Part shown: piece after piece, positions 31,951 to 40,907 of the stretch
How the letters are laid out: every line of letters starts with the position of its first letter
How positions within the stretch are numbered: position 1 is the stretch's first letter
From: Tautonia marina
GTDB taxonomy: Bacteria > Planctomycetota > Planctomycetia > Isosphaerales > Isosphaeraceae
Length of the DNA: 64,000 bases
NCBI RefSeq assembly: GCF_009177065.1
Contig: NZ_WEZF01000001.1
Span: 248,001-312,000 of the forward strand
Direction of reading: 5' to 3'
Program-made: the position numbers and the translations under genes
Notes under the pieces: generated by a model
Told to the model about the DNA's origin: nothing
The model's database searches: none
Seen by the model: the letters and a program-made list of their open reading frames with translations, nothing else

Positions 31951-32333
31951 GGTGCCGCCCTCCTTGAACCGCTCCGAGACGACTTCGACCGCCGGGGCAC
32001 CTTCGACCCAGCCTTGGCGATCACTCCCGGATTCCGCGGTCCTCGAACCTTGTGTTCCGATCTCACCGGCGAGACGCGTTGCCTCGGTTCCTCCCGGCTT
32101 CGACCCTTATCTTGATCGCACCTCTCGAAAAAATTCAACACTCATCCGACCCTTCTTCAAAAAAACGACATGAGGCGAGTCGGACACGAACCATCACGCG
32201 ACGGCGAGCGATCGGCGCCGCCTTGACCCTTCGACCGAGGCCGGTCAAGGTATTGCCTCAGCAAAGCGTTTGCCCGATCGAGGATGGCGAGCGTGTTTTC
32301 GCCGCGGTTGGAAGACGATTCGGGAGCGCCGTG
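31951..32333. other. Divergent intergenic region between the DUF1501 and sialidase-like genes
   Basis: About 380 bases without a supported gene. It contains A-rich runs near 32130-32165, suitable for promoters in either direction. There is a perfect 8-bp inverted repeat CCTTGACC/GGTCAAGG at 32221-32228 and 32243-32250 that could be an operator or a leader hairpin for the downstream gene. Confidence 0.4.
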
Positions 32334-33533
32334 ATGCGAACCAGCAACTGCAACCGTCGGGCAAACCTTCAAGGGCCAGGGCTGCCGATGGCCCTGCTGA
32401 TCGCGGTCTGGCTCGGCTCGCCATCCCAGGCGGACGACGAGAAGCATGCGGCCACCGCGCCGAGCGTTCTCGAACATGTCGTCGTTTACCGAGAGCCGGG
32501 ACGCTTCGCCGGCTGGCCGGCCAATCACGGCATCTGGTCGTGGGGCGATGAGGTGCTCGTCGGCTTCAGTCGGGGATACTACAAAGACCTGGGCGATCGC
32601 CACCACATCGACCGCGAGAAGCCCGAGGACTACCTGCTCGCCCGGAGCCTCGACGGCGGCAAAACCTGGGCGGTCGAGGTTCCCCAGCCTCCCGGAGCGC
32701 TCGTCGGCACTTCCGGGATGAGGCACGGCGTCATGCCTCCCGGCGTGCCCGACGAAACATTGATCGACCTGGCTGAGCCGATCGACTTCACCCACCCCGA
32801 CTTTGCCATGACGCTCCGCATGGCCGACGCCAACGGCGGCGTCTCGCGATGGTATTACTCCTACGATCGCGGCCGAACGTGGCGAGGGCCGCATCCGTTA
32901 CCCCTGTTCGGTCAGCCGGGGGTGATGGCCCGTACCGATTACGTCGTCAACGGCCCCCGCGATTGCCACATCTTCGCCACCGCCTCGAAGCAGTCGAACG
33001 GCCGAGAGGGCCGCCCCTTTTGTGCCCGGACACGAGACGGCGGCCTGACCTGGGAATTCCTTTCCTTCATCGGTCCCGAGCCCGATGACGGCTACGCCAT
33101 CATGCCCGGCACCGTTCGCGTCGGCCCGACCGACCTGGTGACAACCATCCGCCGGCGCGATTCGGAGCGAAGCTGGATCGACGCCTACGCCTCACACGAC
33201 GACGGCCGCTCATGGACCTTCCTCGGCGAGCCCGAACCCAGTCTCGGTGCCGGGAACCCGCCGAGCCTCGTCCGATTGCCCGACGGCCGACTCGCCCTCA
33301 TCACCGCCCATCGTGCCGAGCCGTACAGCATCCGAGCCCGTCTGAGCCAGGACAACGGCCGGACCTGGTCCGACCTCATCACCCTCCGCGACGACGGGGG
33401 CGGCACCGACATCGGCTATGTCCGCTCGGTCGTCCGCCCCGACGGCACGATCCTCTCGGTCTACTACTATCACGACCGAACCGGCCCCGACCGCTACCTC
33501 GCCGGCACGATCTGGGACCCGGGAAAACCGTGA
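32334..33533 (+). CDS. Secreted sialidase-like (BNR/Asp-box) beta-propeller protein
   Basis: A 399-residue protein with a signal peptide (LPMALLIAVWLGSPSQA, cleavage near residue 34) and a six-bladed sialidase-type propeller. Asp-box motifs (S-x-D-x-G-x-T-W) recur: SLDGGKTWAVE, SYDRGRTWRGP, TRDGGLTWEF, SHDDGRSWTFLG and SQDNGRTWSDL. The Arg triad needed for true sialidase activity cannot be confirmed by eye, so a general glycoside hydrolase or lectin-like role is equally possible. The ATG at 32334 has GGGAG upstream. The gene converges on the GCS2-type ligase gene with only 13 bases between. Confidence 0.82.
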   Translation: MRTSNCNRRANLQGPGLPMALLIAVWLGSPSQADDEKHAATAPSVLEHVVVYREPGRFAGWPANHGIWSWGDEVLVGFSRGYYKDLGDRHHIDREKPEDYLLARSLDGGKTWAVEVPQPPGALVGTSGMRHGVMPPGVPDETLIDLAEPIDFTHPDFAMTLRMADANGGVSRWYYSYDRGRTWRGPHPLPLFGQPGVMARTDYVVNGPRDCHIFATASKQSNGREGRPFCARTRDGGLTWEFLSFIGPEPDDGYAIMPGTVRVGPTDLVTTIRRRDSERSWIDAYASHDDGRSWTFLGEPEPSLGAGNPPSLVRLPDGRLALITAHRAEPYSIRARLSQDNGRTWSDLITLRDDGGGTDIGYVRSVVRPDGTILSVYYYHDRTGPDRYLAGTIWDPGKP

Positions 33534-33546
33534 GCCTCGTCTTCGA

Positions 33547-34776
33547 TCAACGAAAGAGCCGGTCGTCGAGGAGGCATCGGCCAAGGGTGTCATAGGTCCT
33601 GACGATCGCCGAACGGTCGGGCTCGGGACCGACGGCTTCGAGGATGCGCCGGGCGAGCGGGCCGCGATCGAGGAGCAGTTCCAGCGGCTCCTCTGCTTCG
33701 GAGATCAAGCCCGTCGTGGTTCGGAGCGAAGCGAAGAGCCGTCGCCAGAGCCCTCCGGCGTCGATCGCCACGTCGAGTCCAAAGCAATCACGATACGCGG
33801 GATCGTCAATCCGGGCTCGCTCGCCGTTGCGGAGACAATCAAGGAAGATCGGTTCCAGCACCTCGACGGGAATTGATCGTTGCGTCTCGGTTGAGGACCA
33901 GCGTTCCTCGACCAGTCCCCGCACCGCTTCGACCACAAGCGACGCGATGGCCAGGTCGGCCCTTGGGCATTCCTGCACGTCGAGCAGGCGAATCTCGATT
34001 GCCGAGCGGTCGAACCGGGCGATCGCGCCTCGGGCGTTGAGCCACTCGTGGCGGAGGATGCCTTCGGGATCGAGCGGGGCAATGGCGGCGTACATCGGTT
34101 CGAAGATCAGGCGATTGTACTCGGCCCGCGAGAAGGCCGGCTCGGGAATCACACGGCAGGTCACTTCGGGAACCCGTCGGCAATTGTGCCGGTAGAATTC
34201 CAGACGCGTGTCGAGCAGGCCGCTGATGCGCCCTTCGACGATCGGCGAGCTGGCGGCCAGGGCCGGGAGGATCGGCAGGATCAGGCGGATCGCCGCGTGA
34301 AGCCGGGCGAACTCCTCATCGCCACAGAACGGCAAATTGATGTGCATGCTCTGCAAATTCGACCAGCCGTGCCCCCGGCAGTCAAAGATGCGGTCGAACG
34401 TCCGATAGATCGGGCCGAAGTCGTGCGGCCAGAGTTTCGCCTCGGTGTTCGGGTCCATCAAGGGGTGCATTGCCGTGGGCAAGAGGCAGGCACCCATCGG
34501 CGCGAGGATCGCATCCATGCGGCCGAGATGCTCCTGGAATTGCCCGGCGAGGCCCGACAGCGACGCCACCGGCTCGGTCGTCTTCAGCTCGACGACGTGC
34601 GCGGCCAGTTCGTTCGACCAGGAGATCGGGCCGAGGTCCACCTCCGATTCGGGTTCGCCCGAGGGGCTGACACTGGCCAGCAGACGATCGGCGATCGGCC
34701 GGACGGCGAGCGTTTCCCGATCGACAATCATGTATTCCAGTTCGATCCCGAATCGCTCGAACAGATGAAAGCTCAT
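33547..34776 (-). CDS. GCS2-type carboxylate-amine ligase (glutamate-cysteine ligase family 2, YbdK-like)
   Basis: A 409-residue ATP-dependent ligase of the glutamine synthetase-like GCS2 fold, which joins a carboxylate (often glutamate) to an amine. It begins LFERFGIELEYMIVD with the metal-binding E-x-E, and continues with TAMHPLMDPN, then GHGWSNLQSMHINLPF with Gln/His ligands, RLEFYRHNCRRVPEVTCRVI and AIEIRLLDVQECP, all matching GCS2/YbdK. It ends a three-gene operon: its start overlaps the RimK-type gene stop by 4 bases, and GGGGGG precedes the ATG at 34776. The pairing with an ATP-grasp ligase and a C39 peptidase suggests a peptide-like product rather than glutathione. Confidence 0.9.
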   Translation of the reverse strand: MSFHLFERFGIELEYMIVDRETLAVRPIADRLLASVSPSGEPESEVDLGPISWSNELAAHVVELKTTEPVASLSGLAGQFQEHLGRMDAILAPMGACLLPTAMHPLMDPNTEAKLWPHDFGPIYRTFDRIFDCRGHGWSNLQSMHINLPFCGDEEFARLHAAIRLILPILPALAASSPIVEGRISGLLDTRLEFYRHNCRRVPEVTCRVIPEPAFSRAEYNRLIFEPMYAAIAPLDPEGILRHEWLNARGAIARFDRSAIEIRLLDVQECPRADLAIASLVVEAVRGLVEERWSSTETQRSIPVEVLEPIFLDCLRNGERARIDDPAYRDCFGLDVAIDAGGLWRRLFASLRTTTGLISEAEEPLELLLDRGPLARRILEAVGPEPDRSAIVRTYDTLGRCLLDDRLFR

Positions 34777-36257
34777 GGTCGGGAATTCCCCCCGCCGTAG
34801 CCGGCCTTGCGGCGCTCGATTCGGCGAAGGAAGACATCGGCCAGACGACGATACAGGTCGTCGCGGAGGACCGCGTCCTCGACTCCCGCCTCAATGTTCG
34901 GGTTGTCGTTGACCTCGATGACCGTGAACTGATCGCCCGATTGCTTCACGTCCACGCCGTAAAGTCCGTCGCCGATCAGCTCGGCGGCTCGGGTTGCCAG
35001 GCGAACGGCCTTGCGTGGGGCCAGTTCCACCGGCACGGTTTCAAACTTGCCGTAGGAACTCTTGCCCGAGGCATCGCGCTTGATAATCTGCCAATGCTTT
35101 CGCGCCATGAAATACTTGCACGCGAATAAGGGTTGGCCATCGAGAATGCCAATGCGCCAGTCGAACGTCGTGGGCAGATACTCCTGCGCGACCACAAGAT
35201 CGGATTCTTTCCAGAACCTTGCCAGCTCGTCGCGCAGGGCTTCAGGCGTTTCGACCTTGATGACCCCTCGCGAGAACGAGCTGTCCGGCTGTTTCAGGAC
35301 GCAGGGGAGGCCGATTTGTTCGAGCACCTCGTCCACGTTCTCCTCGTGGGCGACCAGCGTTTTCGGGGCCGGGATGTTGTGGTGCTTGAGCAGTTCGGCG
35401 AGATAGACTTTGTTCGAGCAGCGGACGATCGACTCGGGATCGTCGATCACCACCAGTCCTTCGCCGGCGGCGCGTCGGGCGAAGCGGTAGGTGTGGTGGT
35501 TCGGCGCGGTCGTCTCACGGATGAACAGGGCGTCGAACTCGGCGATCCTGCCGTAATCTTCGGGGCCGATGACCTCAACGGCCAGGCCCACCGCCTCGGC
35601 CGCTCGGGTCAATCGCTGCAGCGCCTTCTCATCGGAGGGGGGCTCGGCCTCTTTCGGATTCCGGAGAATCGCCAGGTCGTAGCGCGAGGCCGCCCGGCGG
35701 CGGATCGACCCCCTTCGGCCGGCGAAAAACTCGCGGGCCGCCTCGGCGACGAACGGCCAGTGCGGCTCGGGAACCTCCCGAGCCCCGATCGCCGCCACGC
35801 TCCGAAGCTGCCAGCGGTCGTCGATCTTCTTGAACTGGGCCCGCAGCATGGGGGCTCGAAAGGAATCGAACAGGTGGCGGCTCAGTGTGTCGTACCGCTT
35901 GGCCAGGTTGCGGCCGAAGTAGACGCTCAGGGTGAACGCGTCAGACTGCAACGGATGCAAGTCTTTTTGAATGCGGTCGTCAAGATCTTCCCCCAGCAAC
36001 CGAACCATCGCGGGGGATTTCATATCCTGAATCGTTGTGATCGAGGGCAAGGGCCGATGCCCCCGCGCCTCGGCCAGGAGCGAGACATAATACCCGGCAC
36101 TTTGATAGCGATACGATTTGCACAGATTAAACAGCCTGGCGTTACGGAGCCCGGCGAATCGATCGCCGGTCAGGTACGACCAGGCATCGACGACCTCGAC
36201 CTCGGGCAGCTCGGAGGGCCAGTCCGTGGTGTTGTCGGTTACGATGAGCGTCGGCAC
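34773..36257 (-). CDS. RimK-family ATP-grasp ligase with RLAN N-terminal domain
   Basis: A 494-residue protein. The N-terminal 200 or so residues (TLIVTDNTTDWPSELPEVEV onward) fit the RimK-like ATP-grasp N-terminal (RLAN) domain. The C-terminal part is an ATP-grasp fold: SNKVYLAELLKHHNIPAPKT, LPCVLKQPDSSFSRGVIKV (glycine-rich nucleotide loop), DWRIGILDGQPLFACKYFMA, and the metal-binding end GDQFTVIEVNDNPNIEAGVE with the E/N ligands. RimK enzymes ligate glutamate or other amino acids to an acceptor carboxylate. The start is GTG at 36257 with GGAAGG upstream. The stop overlaps the GCS2 gene by 4 bases, and the C39 gene ends 36 bases upstream, so translation is coupled. Confidence 0.9.
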   Translation of the reverse strand: MPTLIVTDNTTDWPSELPEVEVVDAWSYLTGDRFAGLRNARLFNLCKSYRYQSAGYYVSLLAEARGHRPLPSITTIQDMKSPAMVRLLGEDLDDRIQKDLHPLQSDAFTLSVYFGRNLAKRYDTLSRHLFDSFRAPMLRAQFKKIDDRWQLRSVAAIGAREVPEPHWPFVAEAAREFFAGRRGSIRRRAASRYDLAILRNPKEAEPPSDEKALQRLTRAAEAVGLAVEVIGPEDYGRIAEFDALFIRETTAPNHHTYRFARRAAGEGLVVIDDPESIVRCSNKVYLAELLKHHNIPAPKTLVAHEENVDEVLEQIGLPCVLKQPDSSFSRGVIKVETPEALRDELARFWKESDLVVAQEYLPTTFDWRIGILDGQPLFACKYFMARKHWQIIKRDASGKSSYGKFETVPVELAPRKAVRLATRAAELIGDGLYGVDVKQSGDQFTVIEVNDNPNIEAGVEDAVLRDDLYRRLADVFLRRIERRKAGYGGGNSRP

Positions 36258-36293
36258 GAGGCGGGTCCTTCCACTCGCGGAAATCAGGGCCGA

Positions 36294-37007
36294 TCAGCGG
36301 CCGGCGCGCCGGGGCCGGACGATGAGCAGGTTGGCGTCGTATGTCACGATCCCGAGCATAATGGCCGAGAGCACCCGGTCCATCCCTTGCACGTAATAAT
36401 GGTCGGCTGCCAGCGGGTTGGGCCAGAGCGGGTCGGCCAGCATGACGTCTCGCGTCTTATGGTCATATCCGCAAAGAACGACGAAGTGCCCGGCCGGTTC
36501 GCCTCGGATGTCGTCGTGGTCCGACTTCGGGCCGAACTCGCGGGGCATCCGGTACAGGTACGTCGCCGAGAGGCCGGTGAGGATCGGCACCTGGCGTTCC
36601 AGATAGTGCCGGATCAAGGCCCCGTTCAGGTCGCGCATCCGGATGCGTCCGCCAAGGCGAAGGAACTCCAGATAGGCCCCGGTGGCAATCCGCAGCTTTG
36701 CGTTCTCCTTGATCGCCGCCTGGGCCTTCAGTTTCTCGGCCAGGTGGGGAGCTTCGGGTGTGAACCAGGTGGGGTCGAAGGTGCGCAGGTCGTAGGTGTA
36801 GAGCGTCGCCTCATAACCCCGCTTCAGCGCATGATTGCCGAGCAGGACAGCCAGAGTCCCCCCGCCTTCGAGCTGCGGAATTTCCCGGATGACCTGCTCC
36901 AGGGGAATCTCGTCGCCGAAGTAGCTGTAGACGGCATCAAGGCACGTCGGCCCGCACGTTACGTCGTCGGGCTGCGGCTGGATCTCAAACGTCAGGCGCG
37001 TTTCCAC
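36294..37007 (-). CDS. C39-like cysteine peptidase
   Basis: A 237-residue papain-fold protein. The catalytic residues are all visible: Cys18 in DDVTCGPTCLDAVY, His174 in PAGHFVVLCGYDH and Asp192 in VMLADPLWPN, the C39 peptidase layout, together with the oxyanion Gln region upstream of Cys. There is no signal peptide and no ABC transporter domain, unlike bacteriocin C39 exporters, so it acts in the cytoplasm or on an intracellular peptide. The start is GTG at 37007 and the gene leads the operon with the RimK-type and GCS2-type ligases. It may trim a precursor peptide, hydrolyse the amide product, or act as a transpeptidase. Confidence 0.88.
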   Translation of the reverse strand: METRLTFEIQPQPDDVTCGPTCLDAVYSYFGDEIPLEQVIREIPQLEGGGTLAVLLGNHALKRGYEATLYTYDLRTFDPTWFTPEAPHLAEKLKAQAAIKENAKLRIATGAYLEFLRLGGRIRMRDLNGALIRHYLERQVPILTGLSATYLYRMPREFGPKSDHDDIRGEPAGHFVVLCGYDHKTRDVMLADPLWPNPLAADHYYVQGMDRVLSAIMLGIVTYDANLLIVRPRRAGR

Positions 37008-39229: not shown

Positions 39230-40837
39230 TCAATCAGAGTTGTCCTCGCCTTGCACTCCCTCGGGTTTCTCTCCGCCCCGGATTGCTCGGAGTTCGTCGA
39301 GGATGGCGTCGAGCTTCCGTTCGAGGGATTCGATGCGTTGATCCGGGGTCGGCCCTGCGGTCGGCCGCTGCTCGAAAGGATTGCGTTGATCCGGCGTCAG
39401 TTCAAAAGGACTGCGTTGATCCGGGGTCGGGATGAATGGATCAGAGCTACGGGCCTCGCCTTCTCGGGCGCGGTCCAGTTCGAAGGGAGAAGACTCAGGG
39501 CCGATGATCCGCTCCTCGACGATCTCGACTTCGGTCGGTTCGGGACCGATGATCCGCTCCTCGACCACCTCGGGCGGGTTCTTGAGGGCTGTGACGAGGC
39601 GGCGAATCTGTTCGAGCCGCGTGCGGACCTCGTCATGCACTTCCGCCGTATGGCGGATGACCATCTTGCTAGTTGAGGGAAGCGGGATGAGCACTCCATC
39701 GGGAAGCGTGTCCCCGGGGGGGACCTCCTCACCCGGAAAACGCGTGATGGTCCATGAGTCGGGCGCAACCGAAGAGGTCAGGAGTTCAATGAGTGGTTCG
39801 AAGTCGGCAGAACGTGTGATTTGTGTAAGACGTGGACCGGGTCCCTCCTGGTGGTATCCACGCACCAGATGGTTGAAGGCAATGAGGTCGGGCACCGAAT
39901 AGGTTCTTGTGACCATCCTCCCCTCATCCGCAATCCCTCCCGTCACCGTGGCGGGCGAGGGCTCCGGCTTCGACTGCGCCGAAATCGACGCCCCCGCCGC
40001 GAAGACCCCCGCCGACATCAGCCCGACCACCAATACGCGATGAATCATGCTCGACTCCTTCACCAGTGTCACCGCCGCGGCGATCGCCCCGGCCGGGACC
40101 GTCCCGACCAGGCCGATCGCTCCCCCGTGCGTCGCGGACACCGCGTTCTGGACCGTCGCATGGAGCAACGACCCTCGAATCGCTTCCGAGCCGGATCGCA
40201 TGAGTAACCCAGGGCCGATCAGCACGCCCGACGACGGGGCCAGCCCTCGCCGGTCGAGCCGCGATCGGAGCCGTTCCCGGCCCCTCGCCAATCGGCTCCG
40301 GATCGTCCCCACCGGCCAGCCGAGCCGATCGGCCGCCTGGTCGTGGGTGAGCCCTTCGACCAGGCAGAGCACGATCGCCAGGCGTTGCGCCTCGGGCAAC
40401 CGGGCGATCTCCTCGTGCAAGGCGGCCCCAAGGTCATCGGGAACGCCCGGCTCGAAAGAGGAGGGCATCAAGGCGGCGGCCTTCGCGTCGATCCGACGGC
40501 GTCGGGCCTGATCGTTCCTCATCCGAGTGGCGACCCGGACCGTCACCGCGTGCAGCCACGGGCCGATCGAATCCCGGACCCAGAGCGACCGCGCCCGCTT
40601 CGCCAGGGTGACGAACACGGTTTGAAACGCATCGTCGGCCAGGTCGCGATCACTCACGATCGACCGCGCCACCCGCTGCACCATTGGCCCATGCCGCTCG
40701 ACCAGGATTTCGAACGCCCGTTCCGCCCTCGTTCCCTCGCGGGTGACGAACCGCTCCAGCAACTGCCCGTCCGACATCCCCAGCCCCGAACCACCCCCGA
40801 ACAGGGTGCCAAGATGCCGGAGACTCGCCTCGTTCAT
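39230..40837 (-). CDS. ECF sigma factor with membrane anchor and long C-terminal extension
   Basis: A 535-residue protein. Residues about 20-90 form sigma region 2 (RAFEILVERHGPMVQRVARS, DLADDAFQTVFVTLAKRAR) and about 120-175 region 4 (LPEAQRLAIVLCLVEGLTHD, QAADRLGWPVGTIRSRLARG). After an Ala/Gly-rich linker there is one membrane helix at about 243-268 (MIHRVLVVGLMSAGVFAAG), then an approximately 265-residue outside domain. The tail contains two near-repeats of VEERIIGPE and three of TPDQR-x-P/S-F-E-x. This fusion of sigma factor to a membrane-spanning sensor-like tail is characteristic of planctomycete ECF groups. No separate anti-sigma gene is adjacent, so the tail may do that job. Start 40837 is chosen at MNEASLRHLG; an upstream start at 40906 has no sigma similarity. 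Confidence 0.9.
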   Translation of the reverse strand: MNEASLRHLGTLFGGGSGLGMSDGQLLERFVTREGTRAERAFEILVERHGPMVQRVARSIVSDRDLADDAFQTVFVTLAKRARSLWVRDSIGPWLHAVTVRVATRMRNDQARRRRIDAKAAALMPSSFEPGVPDDLGAALHEEIARLPEAQRLAIVLCLVEGLTHDQAADRLGWPVGTIRSRLARGRERLRSRLDRRGLAPSSGVLIGPGLLMRSGSEAIRGSLLHATVQNAVSATHGGAIGLVGTVPAGAIAAAVTLVKESSMIHRVLVVGLMSAGVFAAGASISAQSKPEPSPATVTGGIADEGRMVTRTYSVPDLIAFNHLVRGYHQEGPGPRLTQITRSADFEPLIELLTSSVAPDSWTITRFPGEEVPPGDTLPDGVLIPLPSTSKMVIRHTAEVHDEVRTRLEQIRRLVTALKNPPEVVEERIIGPEPTEVEIVEERIIGPESSPFELDRAREGEARSSDPFIPTPDQRSPFELTPDQRNPFEQRPTAGPTPDQRIESLERKLDAILDELRAIRGGEKPEGVQGEDNSD

Positions 40838-40907
40838 CGCTCTGGGCACGGCTCGTGATCCTTCCTTTGACTCGGAGTGTCCACGAGGTAATGCCGGGCC
40901 ACGCACC

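Follow-up and report, generated by a model that had tools for sequence, protein, structure and literature searches.

A C39 peptidase, RLAN-RimK and GCS2 operon of Tautonia marina and its relatives, a candidate make-and-break system for a small amide-linked metabolite

The operon and its conservation

The stretch analysed here, called the window, comprises 64,000 nucleotides (nt) of Tautonia marina contig NZ_WEZF01000001.1 and contains an operon of three minus-strand genes, encoding a C39-type papain-like cysteine peptidase (C39), an ATP-grasp ligase with an N-terminal RLAN domain (RLAN-RimK) and a GCS2-fold carboxylate-amine ligase (GCS2). These genes had been described as tightly coupled in an earlier sequence-only reading of the window, and their coordinates and spacing were all confirmed from the open reading frames (ORFs), with protein lengths given in amino acids (aa):

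36294..37007, minus strand: C39-type papain-like cysteine peptidase gene, 237 aa, GTG start; first gene of the operon
36258..36293, minus strand: gap of 36 bases between the C39 and RLAN-RimK genes
34773..36257, minus strand: RLAN-RimK ATP-grasp ligase gene, 494 aa, GTG start
34773..34776, minus strand: overlap of 4 bases (ATGA) between the RimK stop and the GCS2 start
33547..34776, minus strand: GCS2-fold carboxylate-amine ligase gene, 409 aa, ATG start; a distinct subfamily with its conserved residues intact

The domain calls of that reading were also confirmed by Pfam, which found Peptidase_C39_2 (E 5e-10) in the first protein, RLAN (E 5e-46, residues 27-172) and RimK (E 7e-10) in the second and GCS2 (PF04107, E 9e-31) in the third.

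Conservation of the unit was investigated in 202 RLAN-RimK loci over all sets, two of which (L173 and L175) are fragmentary at the ends of contigs, while four pairs share identical RimK sequences. Partner genes were counted by profile search, with profiles iterated from Planctomycetota members, because stop-to-stop calling with a greedy filter missed high-GC genes, the C39 gene of the window included; in L112 and L150 the C39 or GCS2 match was split across two frames. Planctomycetota neighbourhoods were taken from 60 of the 64 RLAN genomes besides that of Tautonia, omitting G108, G113, G210 and G232 with weak or partial matches. The named-genome sample consisted of the best 80 of 587 relatives confirmed in a scan with the RimK alignment, and for that reason it favours close relatives of the window. 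The Pseudomonadota set consisted of 299 genomes from the phylum of Thiobacillus thioparus, the record title of this central species having supplied the phylum name, and all its RLAN loci (n = 59) were examined.

RLAN was present in 65 of the 246 Planctomycetota genomes. The C39 subfamily (E <= 1e-20) was found in 45 of these 246, 44 of them with RLAN (Fisher p 2e-31), and the GCS2 subfamily (E <= 1e-30) in 49, 47 of them with RLAN (Fisher p 6e-33). The co-occurrence of C39, RLAN and GCS2 is not due to chance. In the sole C39 genome without RLAN, G104, the match is cut by a contig end, and the GCS2 genomes without RLAN are G004 and G191, the latter with a RimK-GCS2 fusion truncated where the contig ends. 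The three genes stood together in 103 of the 202 loci, in 103/103 cases in the same order and on one strand, and the co-conservation on which the sequence-only reading had staked its proposal thus held. Both intergenic gaps were below 300 nt between profile matches in 101 of these 103 loci. All three genes were found in 60 of the 80 named loci (the best 80 of 587), and by record title the three-gene operon spans about a dozen phyla. Isolates in the named sample were Blastopirellula, Thiobacillus, Nitrosomonas, Desulfosediminicola, Marivirga, Pontibacter and Rufibacter, and the titles of metagenome-assembled genomes (MAGs) included Nitrospirota, Spirochaetes, Omnitrophota, Ignavibacteria, Verrucomicrobia, Vicinamibacteraceae, Sumerlaeota and others; since the majority of the records are MAGs, individual titles may be wrong. 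RimK and GCS2 were fused in one ORF in five planctomycete loci (L080, L081, L082, L084 and L085) and in a sixth, L173, at a contig edge. Clustering of the neighbouring genes gave RimK/GCS2, C39, ORFs antisense to the operon and a family named FGase as the four biggest groups, followed by a histidine-kinase-like group (14 loci) and an ABC-ATPase-like one (5 loci), both so named by eye.

A fourth gene and a second setting

The recurrent fourth family, FGase, is N-formylglutamate-amidohydrolase-like and matched PF05013 at 80.8-88.5 bits (cut-off 28.9) in 4/4 proteins, the same 4/4 matching 0 families in NCBIfam. The gene was found 3' of GCS2, on the same strand and within 301 nt, except in L038 (1640 nt). 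All four genes were present in 71 of 141 loci, with RimK, GCS2 and FGase in two more, and FGase was found in 75 of the 117 RimK+GCS2 loci as against 0 of the 85 RimK loci without GCS2. A high-scoring FGase group (E <= 1.9e-58) occurred in 36 of the 246 Planctomycetota genomes, 36/36 with the operon-type GCS2 (p 1e-32), the split between high and weak matches having been set after the score gap was seen. Weaker matches (E >= 1.7e-34, the G241 fragment beside GCS2 excepted) occurred in 10 genomes, 4 with the operon-type GCS2 and 6 without. Adjacency alone does not account for the tie between FGase and GCS2, since in G121, G124 and G125 the high-group FGase and GCS2 are on different contigs. G004 carries a GCS2-FGase pair without RLAN or C39 alongside (L172); beside this pair, L172:8885-15928 holds a 1419-aa Cas9-like ORF with Cas1-like and Cas4-like ORFs, all recognised by eye. 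In G124 a second C39-subfamily match with one in-frame TAG (G124:C456:3927-5305) lies directly before FGase and away from the fused RimK-GCS2 locus. No FGase was found in the window or elsewhere in the Tautonia genome (completeness 97.8%), and Tautonia therefore carries a version of the operon without FGase. Accordingly, the two amide-forming enzymes and one amide-cleaving enzyme counted in the sequence-only reading describe Tautonia correctly but not many of its relatives, where two ligases are joined by two hydrolases.

A second setting, with the gene of a GNAT acetyltransferase beside RLAN-RimK, hardly overlaps with the first and was examined in the Pseudomonadota, where RLAN was present in 56 of the 299 genomes. 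GNAT lay within 1 kb of RLAN-RimK in 56 of the 59 loci: its ORF had a C39-sized tail in 41 and lacked one in 14, and in L256 GNAT and RLAN-RimK were fused; of the other three, L265 (Thiobacillus) has the GCS2 setting, L238 begins inside a C39-like ORF and L209 has neither. Pfam analysis of ten GNAT ORFs (nine from Pseudomonadota, one from a planctomycete) placed the C39-like domain DUF3335 after GNAT in 8/10, the remaining two being the GNAT-RLAN-RimK fusion of L256 and L240 with GNAT alone. GNAT was also within 1 kb in 11 of the 13 Planctomycetota RLAN loci without C39 and GCS2, two of which (L075 and L077) have GNAT and RimK in a single ORF according to the profiles, and in 3 of the 8 named loci with RimK alone. 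The corresponding count for RimK+GCS2 loci was 0 of 114, with a weak GNAT match 1.2-2 kb away in 3 of the 114, two of them on the same contig. Compared with the operon of the window, this setting shares the same RLAN-RimK and a C39-like peptidase and differs in that GNAT stands in for GCS2 and FGase. DUF3335-GNAT fusions are mentioned as possible peptide ligases in a 2023 paper that cites Iyer 2009 (PMC10318531). Three genomes (G312, G316 and G400) have two RLAN-RimK copies each (L208 and L211-L215), with a C39-sized tail on GNAT at one copy and none at the other.

On a midpoint-rooted tree of 193 RimK sequences (119 GCS2/C39-type, 66 GNAT-type and 8 neither), the setting changed 3 times, compared with 54 times on average when it was shuffled 200 times. 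The GNAT-type L129, L151 and L156 nest with the GCS2-type L072 and L147 at a support of 0.92. The large GCS2-type clade had a support of 0.45, L075/L077 join at 0.77, and six GCS2-type members fell outside. From the three changes and the nesting, the GNAT set and the GCS2+FGase set seem to have taken one another's place next to this ligase, with two or more such exchanges on the midpoint-rooted tree. Inside the GCS2-type clade, the RLAN-RimK genes of L043, L102, L126, L143, L158 and L160 had no C39, GCS2 or GNAT within 1 kb.

The enzymes and their known relatives

The C39 protein matched no family in NCBIfam. The full Cys/His/Asp set ascribed to it from the sequence was borne out as papain-like, together with an oxyanion Gln, and these residues were nearly invariant among relatives (Q12 104/106, C18 105/106, H174 106/106, D192 106/106). 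Since the catalytic Cys is residue 18, there would be no room for a signal peptide before it. The predicted structure, with a predicted local distance difference test score (pLDDT) of 90, matched the peptidase domains of PCAT1 and ComA in Foldseek; weaker matches were the endoisopeptidase PeiR and Alr0975, which is phytochelatin-synthase-like (TM about 0.45 for Alr0975). Tested as a bacteriocin processor, C39 proved to be a stand-alone 237-aa ORF without an ABC transporter fusion and without a conserved small ORF.

In the RLAN-RimK protein the ATP-grasp region covers residues 211-456 (TIGR00768), and K283, K322, D436, E448 and N450 were each conserved in 134/134 relatives. Its best NCBIfam score was 77.1 bits for rimK_fam, below the cut-off of 143.4, and TIGR02144 (LysX/ArgX) gave 71.1 bits, below 275.6. 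The predicted structure (pLDDT 88) has RimK as its nearest fold, and LysX/ArgX and D-Ala-D-Ala ligases come close. The alignments covered about 300-340 columns out of 494 residues in the model, and the RLAN domain was given no fold. The amino-group ligases LysX/ArgX are thus among the closest folds together with RimK; they differ in the unreached TIGR02144 cut-off, and no LysW-like small ORF is conserved near the operon. RimK is the alpha-L-glutamate ligase of ribosomal protein S6. The RimB protease is encoded in an operon with RimK and opposes it (PMC12239564). Here, too, an ATP-grasp fold and a ligase with a protease in one operon are found, but the protease is papain-like and not retropepsin-like, the ligase has an RLAN N-terminal domain and a GCS2 or GNAT partner, and it scores far below the S6-ligase model. 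In one planctomycete family (L086-L090) RLAN and the ATP-grasp domain are two separate ORFs, and GNAT adjoins in 4/5 loci.

The operon GCS2 shares PF04107 and its motifs with glutamate-cysteine ligases and with YbdK/GshA-type enzymes, and among relatives E12, E14, H104, E261 and D266 were found in 109/109 and H145 and R263 in 107/109. It nevertheless forms a separate subfamily from the latter, its best NCBIfam score being 51.7 bits for TIGR02050 (YbdK-type) against a cut-off of 176.4, and in 4/10 genomes it occurs beside another GshA. The subfamily is sharply bounded, since the weakest operon-type match in the 246 Planctomycetota genomes was 5e-139, far beyond the threshold of 1e-30.

A tentative make-and-break cycle and its alternatives

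With fused genes, exchanged partners and an order that holds, by record title, in about a dozen phyla, the operon is probably selected for one joint product. It may make and break a small amide-linked metabolite of the cytoplasm, for which a short acidic peptide of the glutamate type, N-capped, is the likeliest candidate. This tentative reading is given slightly less than an even chance. GCS2 would form an amide on an amino group (N-capping), as GNAT would in the other version, and RLAN-RimK, using ATP, would couple an amino acid to the carboxylate of the capped unit. FGase would hydrolyse the amide that GCS2 makes and C39 the one that RimK makes, and both hydrolases together would let the metabolite pool be filled and emptied; in Tautonia, without the FGase arm, ligase, ligase and peptidase would remain. 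FGase is assigned to the GCS2-made bond because it follows GCS2 and not RimK. As GNAT replaces GCS2, the role proposed for GCS2 is N-capping of an amino group of the same kind. The RimK-made bond is assigned to C39, since RLAN-RimK has a C39-like peptidase with it in either setting, much as RimB opposes RimK. FGase-family enzymes such as HutG hydrolyse N-acyl-glutamate, and comparable N-capped compounds are N-acetylglutaminylglutamine amide and N-acetylaspartylglutamate. The former is abbreviated NAGGN, and in its system, too, a GNAT/ATP-grasp enzyme and a peptidase are centred on an N-capped dipeptide; the peptidase is of the M42 type, an asparagine-synthetase-like enzyme takes part, and RLAN, C39 or GCS2 are not known from it. 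Least certain are the chemical identity of the cap and the choice between a free acceptor and a protein.

The tie of FGase to GCS2 and the exchange of GNAT for GCS2 turn this reading into a concrete, testable prediction of the bond made or cut by each of four soluble enzymes. Held with more reserve is the wider possibility of a widespread N-capped acidic oligopeptide, not known to have been described before, which would be built and degraded by two ligases and two hydrolases, with interchangeable GCS2 (ATP) and GNAT (acyl-CoA) caps, in about a dozen phyla. The present analysis brought out the tie of FGase to GCS2, the exchange with GNAT and the coexistence with GshA, and priority is not claimed for the first two. 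Nor is the operon claimed as undescribed: amidoligase neighbourhoods of a similar sort were reportedly predicted in 2009 by Iyer et al., said to be the source of the RLAN name. No description of a C39/RLAN-RimK/GCS2 operon was recognised in full-text searches of open-licence papers.

Several observations weigh against the proposed cycle. C39 was absent from 14 and FGase from 42 of the 117 RimK+GCS2 loci, some of them cut by contig ends, and 14 of the 59 Pseudomonadota loci had GNAT without the C39-sized tail. Eight loci (L043, L086, L102, L126, L143, L158, L160 and L209) had neither partner set within 1 kb, and in G124 FGase adjoins a C39 copy instead of GCS2. The direction of the setting changes on the RimK tree depends on the root. 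The pairing of each hydrolase with one ligase is drawn from co-occurrence, and the N-acyl-glutamate specificity of FGase is that of HutG, the 4/4 FGase proteins analysed having no NCBIfam match. The glutathione enzymes of Marivirga, described below, count on the same side.

The best-surviving alternative, although unlikely, is a protein-tagging cycle in which RLAN-RimK, with GCS2 or GNAT, would tag a cellular protein that C39 and FGase would untag in the manner of RimK and RimB. RimK-fold enzymes do tag proteins, the fold matches including RimK with RpsF and LysX/ArgX with the carrier LysW, and the weak match of C39 to PeiR is to an endoisopeptidase. However, no conserved target or carrier gene was found beside the operon. 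The S6 protein of Tautonia (an ORF on L171) has an Arg/Asp-rich C-terminal tail and lacks the terminal glutamates expected of an S6 acceptor, which makes a weak test. The exchange of GCS2 for GNAT would suit small-molecule capping at least as well. The sequence-only reading had left the choice between an intracellular metabolite and protein tagging; the metabolite is now better supported and tagging has become the lesser option.

Next, and also doubtful, is a glutathione-like gamma-glutamyl peptide or thiol, in which GCS2 would make gamma-Glu-X, RimK would add a third residue and C39 would cleave or transfer the gamma-Glu-X unit like a phytochelatin synthase. The GCS2 fold and motifs are those of glutamate-cysteine ligases, and one weak match of the C39 model is Alr0975, a primitive phytochelatin synthase whose structure was determined with glutathione. 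In Marivirga (G250) a glutathione role is possible because the operon GCS2 is the only GCS2 found and stands alongside a GshB-type match (9e-52), with no PF04262 or PF08886. Against this, PF08886 GshA (E <= 7e-186) and PF02955 GshB (E <= 8e-72) were found beside the operon in Thiobacillus thioparus, Nitrosomonas communis and a gammaproteobacterium, and PF04262 in Desulfosediminicola; another GshA family was found in 4/10 operon genomes tested (PF08886 in 3, PF04262 in 1), and neither in the other six. With separate GshA and GshB present, the operon is not needed for glutathione in the Thiobacillus and Nitrosomonas relatives. A GCS2 additional to that of the operon was found in 4/10 genomes tested, Tautonia included, where the second GCS2, on another contig, scored 212.7 bits as against 108.7 for the operon GCS2. 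The NCBIfam glutathione-enzyme models stayed far under their cut-offs, and a GNAT in place of a gamma-glutamyl ligase would be hard to explain. A glutathione pathway was consequently set aside as the general function, Marivirga excepted.

Maturation of a ribosomal peptide of graspetide type, with the ATP-grasp ligase and GCS2 cyclising or capping a precursor trimmed by C39, is very improbable. C39 peptidases and ATP-grasp ligases are known from clusters for ribosomally synthesised and post-translationally modified peptides (RiPPs), according to a portion of PMC8939145. Small ORFs of 22-140 aa were counted 0.8 kb upstream and 1.2 kb downstream in 114 RimK+GCS2 loci, setting aside pieces or antisense of operon genes, and none was common to more than 5 loci. 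The sequence-only reading had likewise seen no precursor-peptide gene in the operon; a linked precursor is already unlikely, and the ABC-ATPase-like neighbour was confined to its 5 loci. For want of such a shared small ORF, a RiPP or carrier protein was rejected.

That the ligase is an ordinary RimK for S6 glutamylation, its neighbours being unrelated, can practically be dismissed: a RimK-family ATP-grasp domain is present, but the ligase reached 20.1 bits against the cut-off of 331 for the NCBIfam S6--L-glutamate ligase, it carries an RLAN domain, the S6 tail lacks terminal Glu and the gene order is conserved. The sequence-only reading had named ordinary glutathione and S6 enzymes as the outcome that would undo it; low curated-model scores, the S6 tail and the other GshA in 4/10 genomes speak otherwise, with Marivirga as the exception for glutathione.

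As to further checks and the surroundings in the window, four proteins gave 0 PADLOC matches, and an anti-phage defence system was rejected as a candidate. A promoter scan found 0 sites versus 0.5 expected, and there was one terminator-like site, within the RimK gene, versus 2.8 expected. A gap of 13 bases separates the GCS2 stop codon from the end of a convergent plus-strand ORF (32052-33533) that looks sialidase/BNR-like by eye. The ORF at 39230-40906 resembles, by eye, an extracytoplasmic-function sigma factor with a long C-terminal extension.

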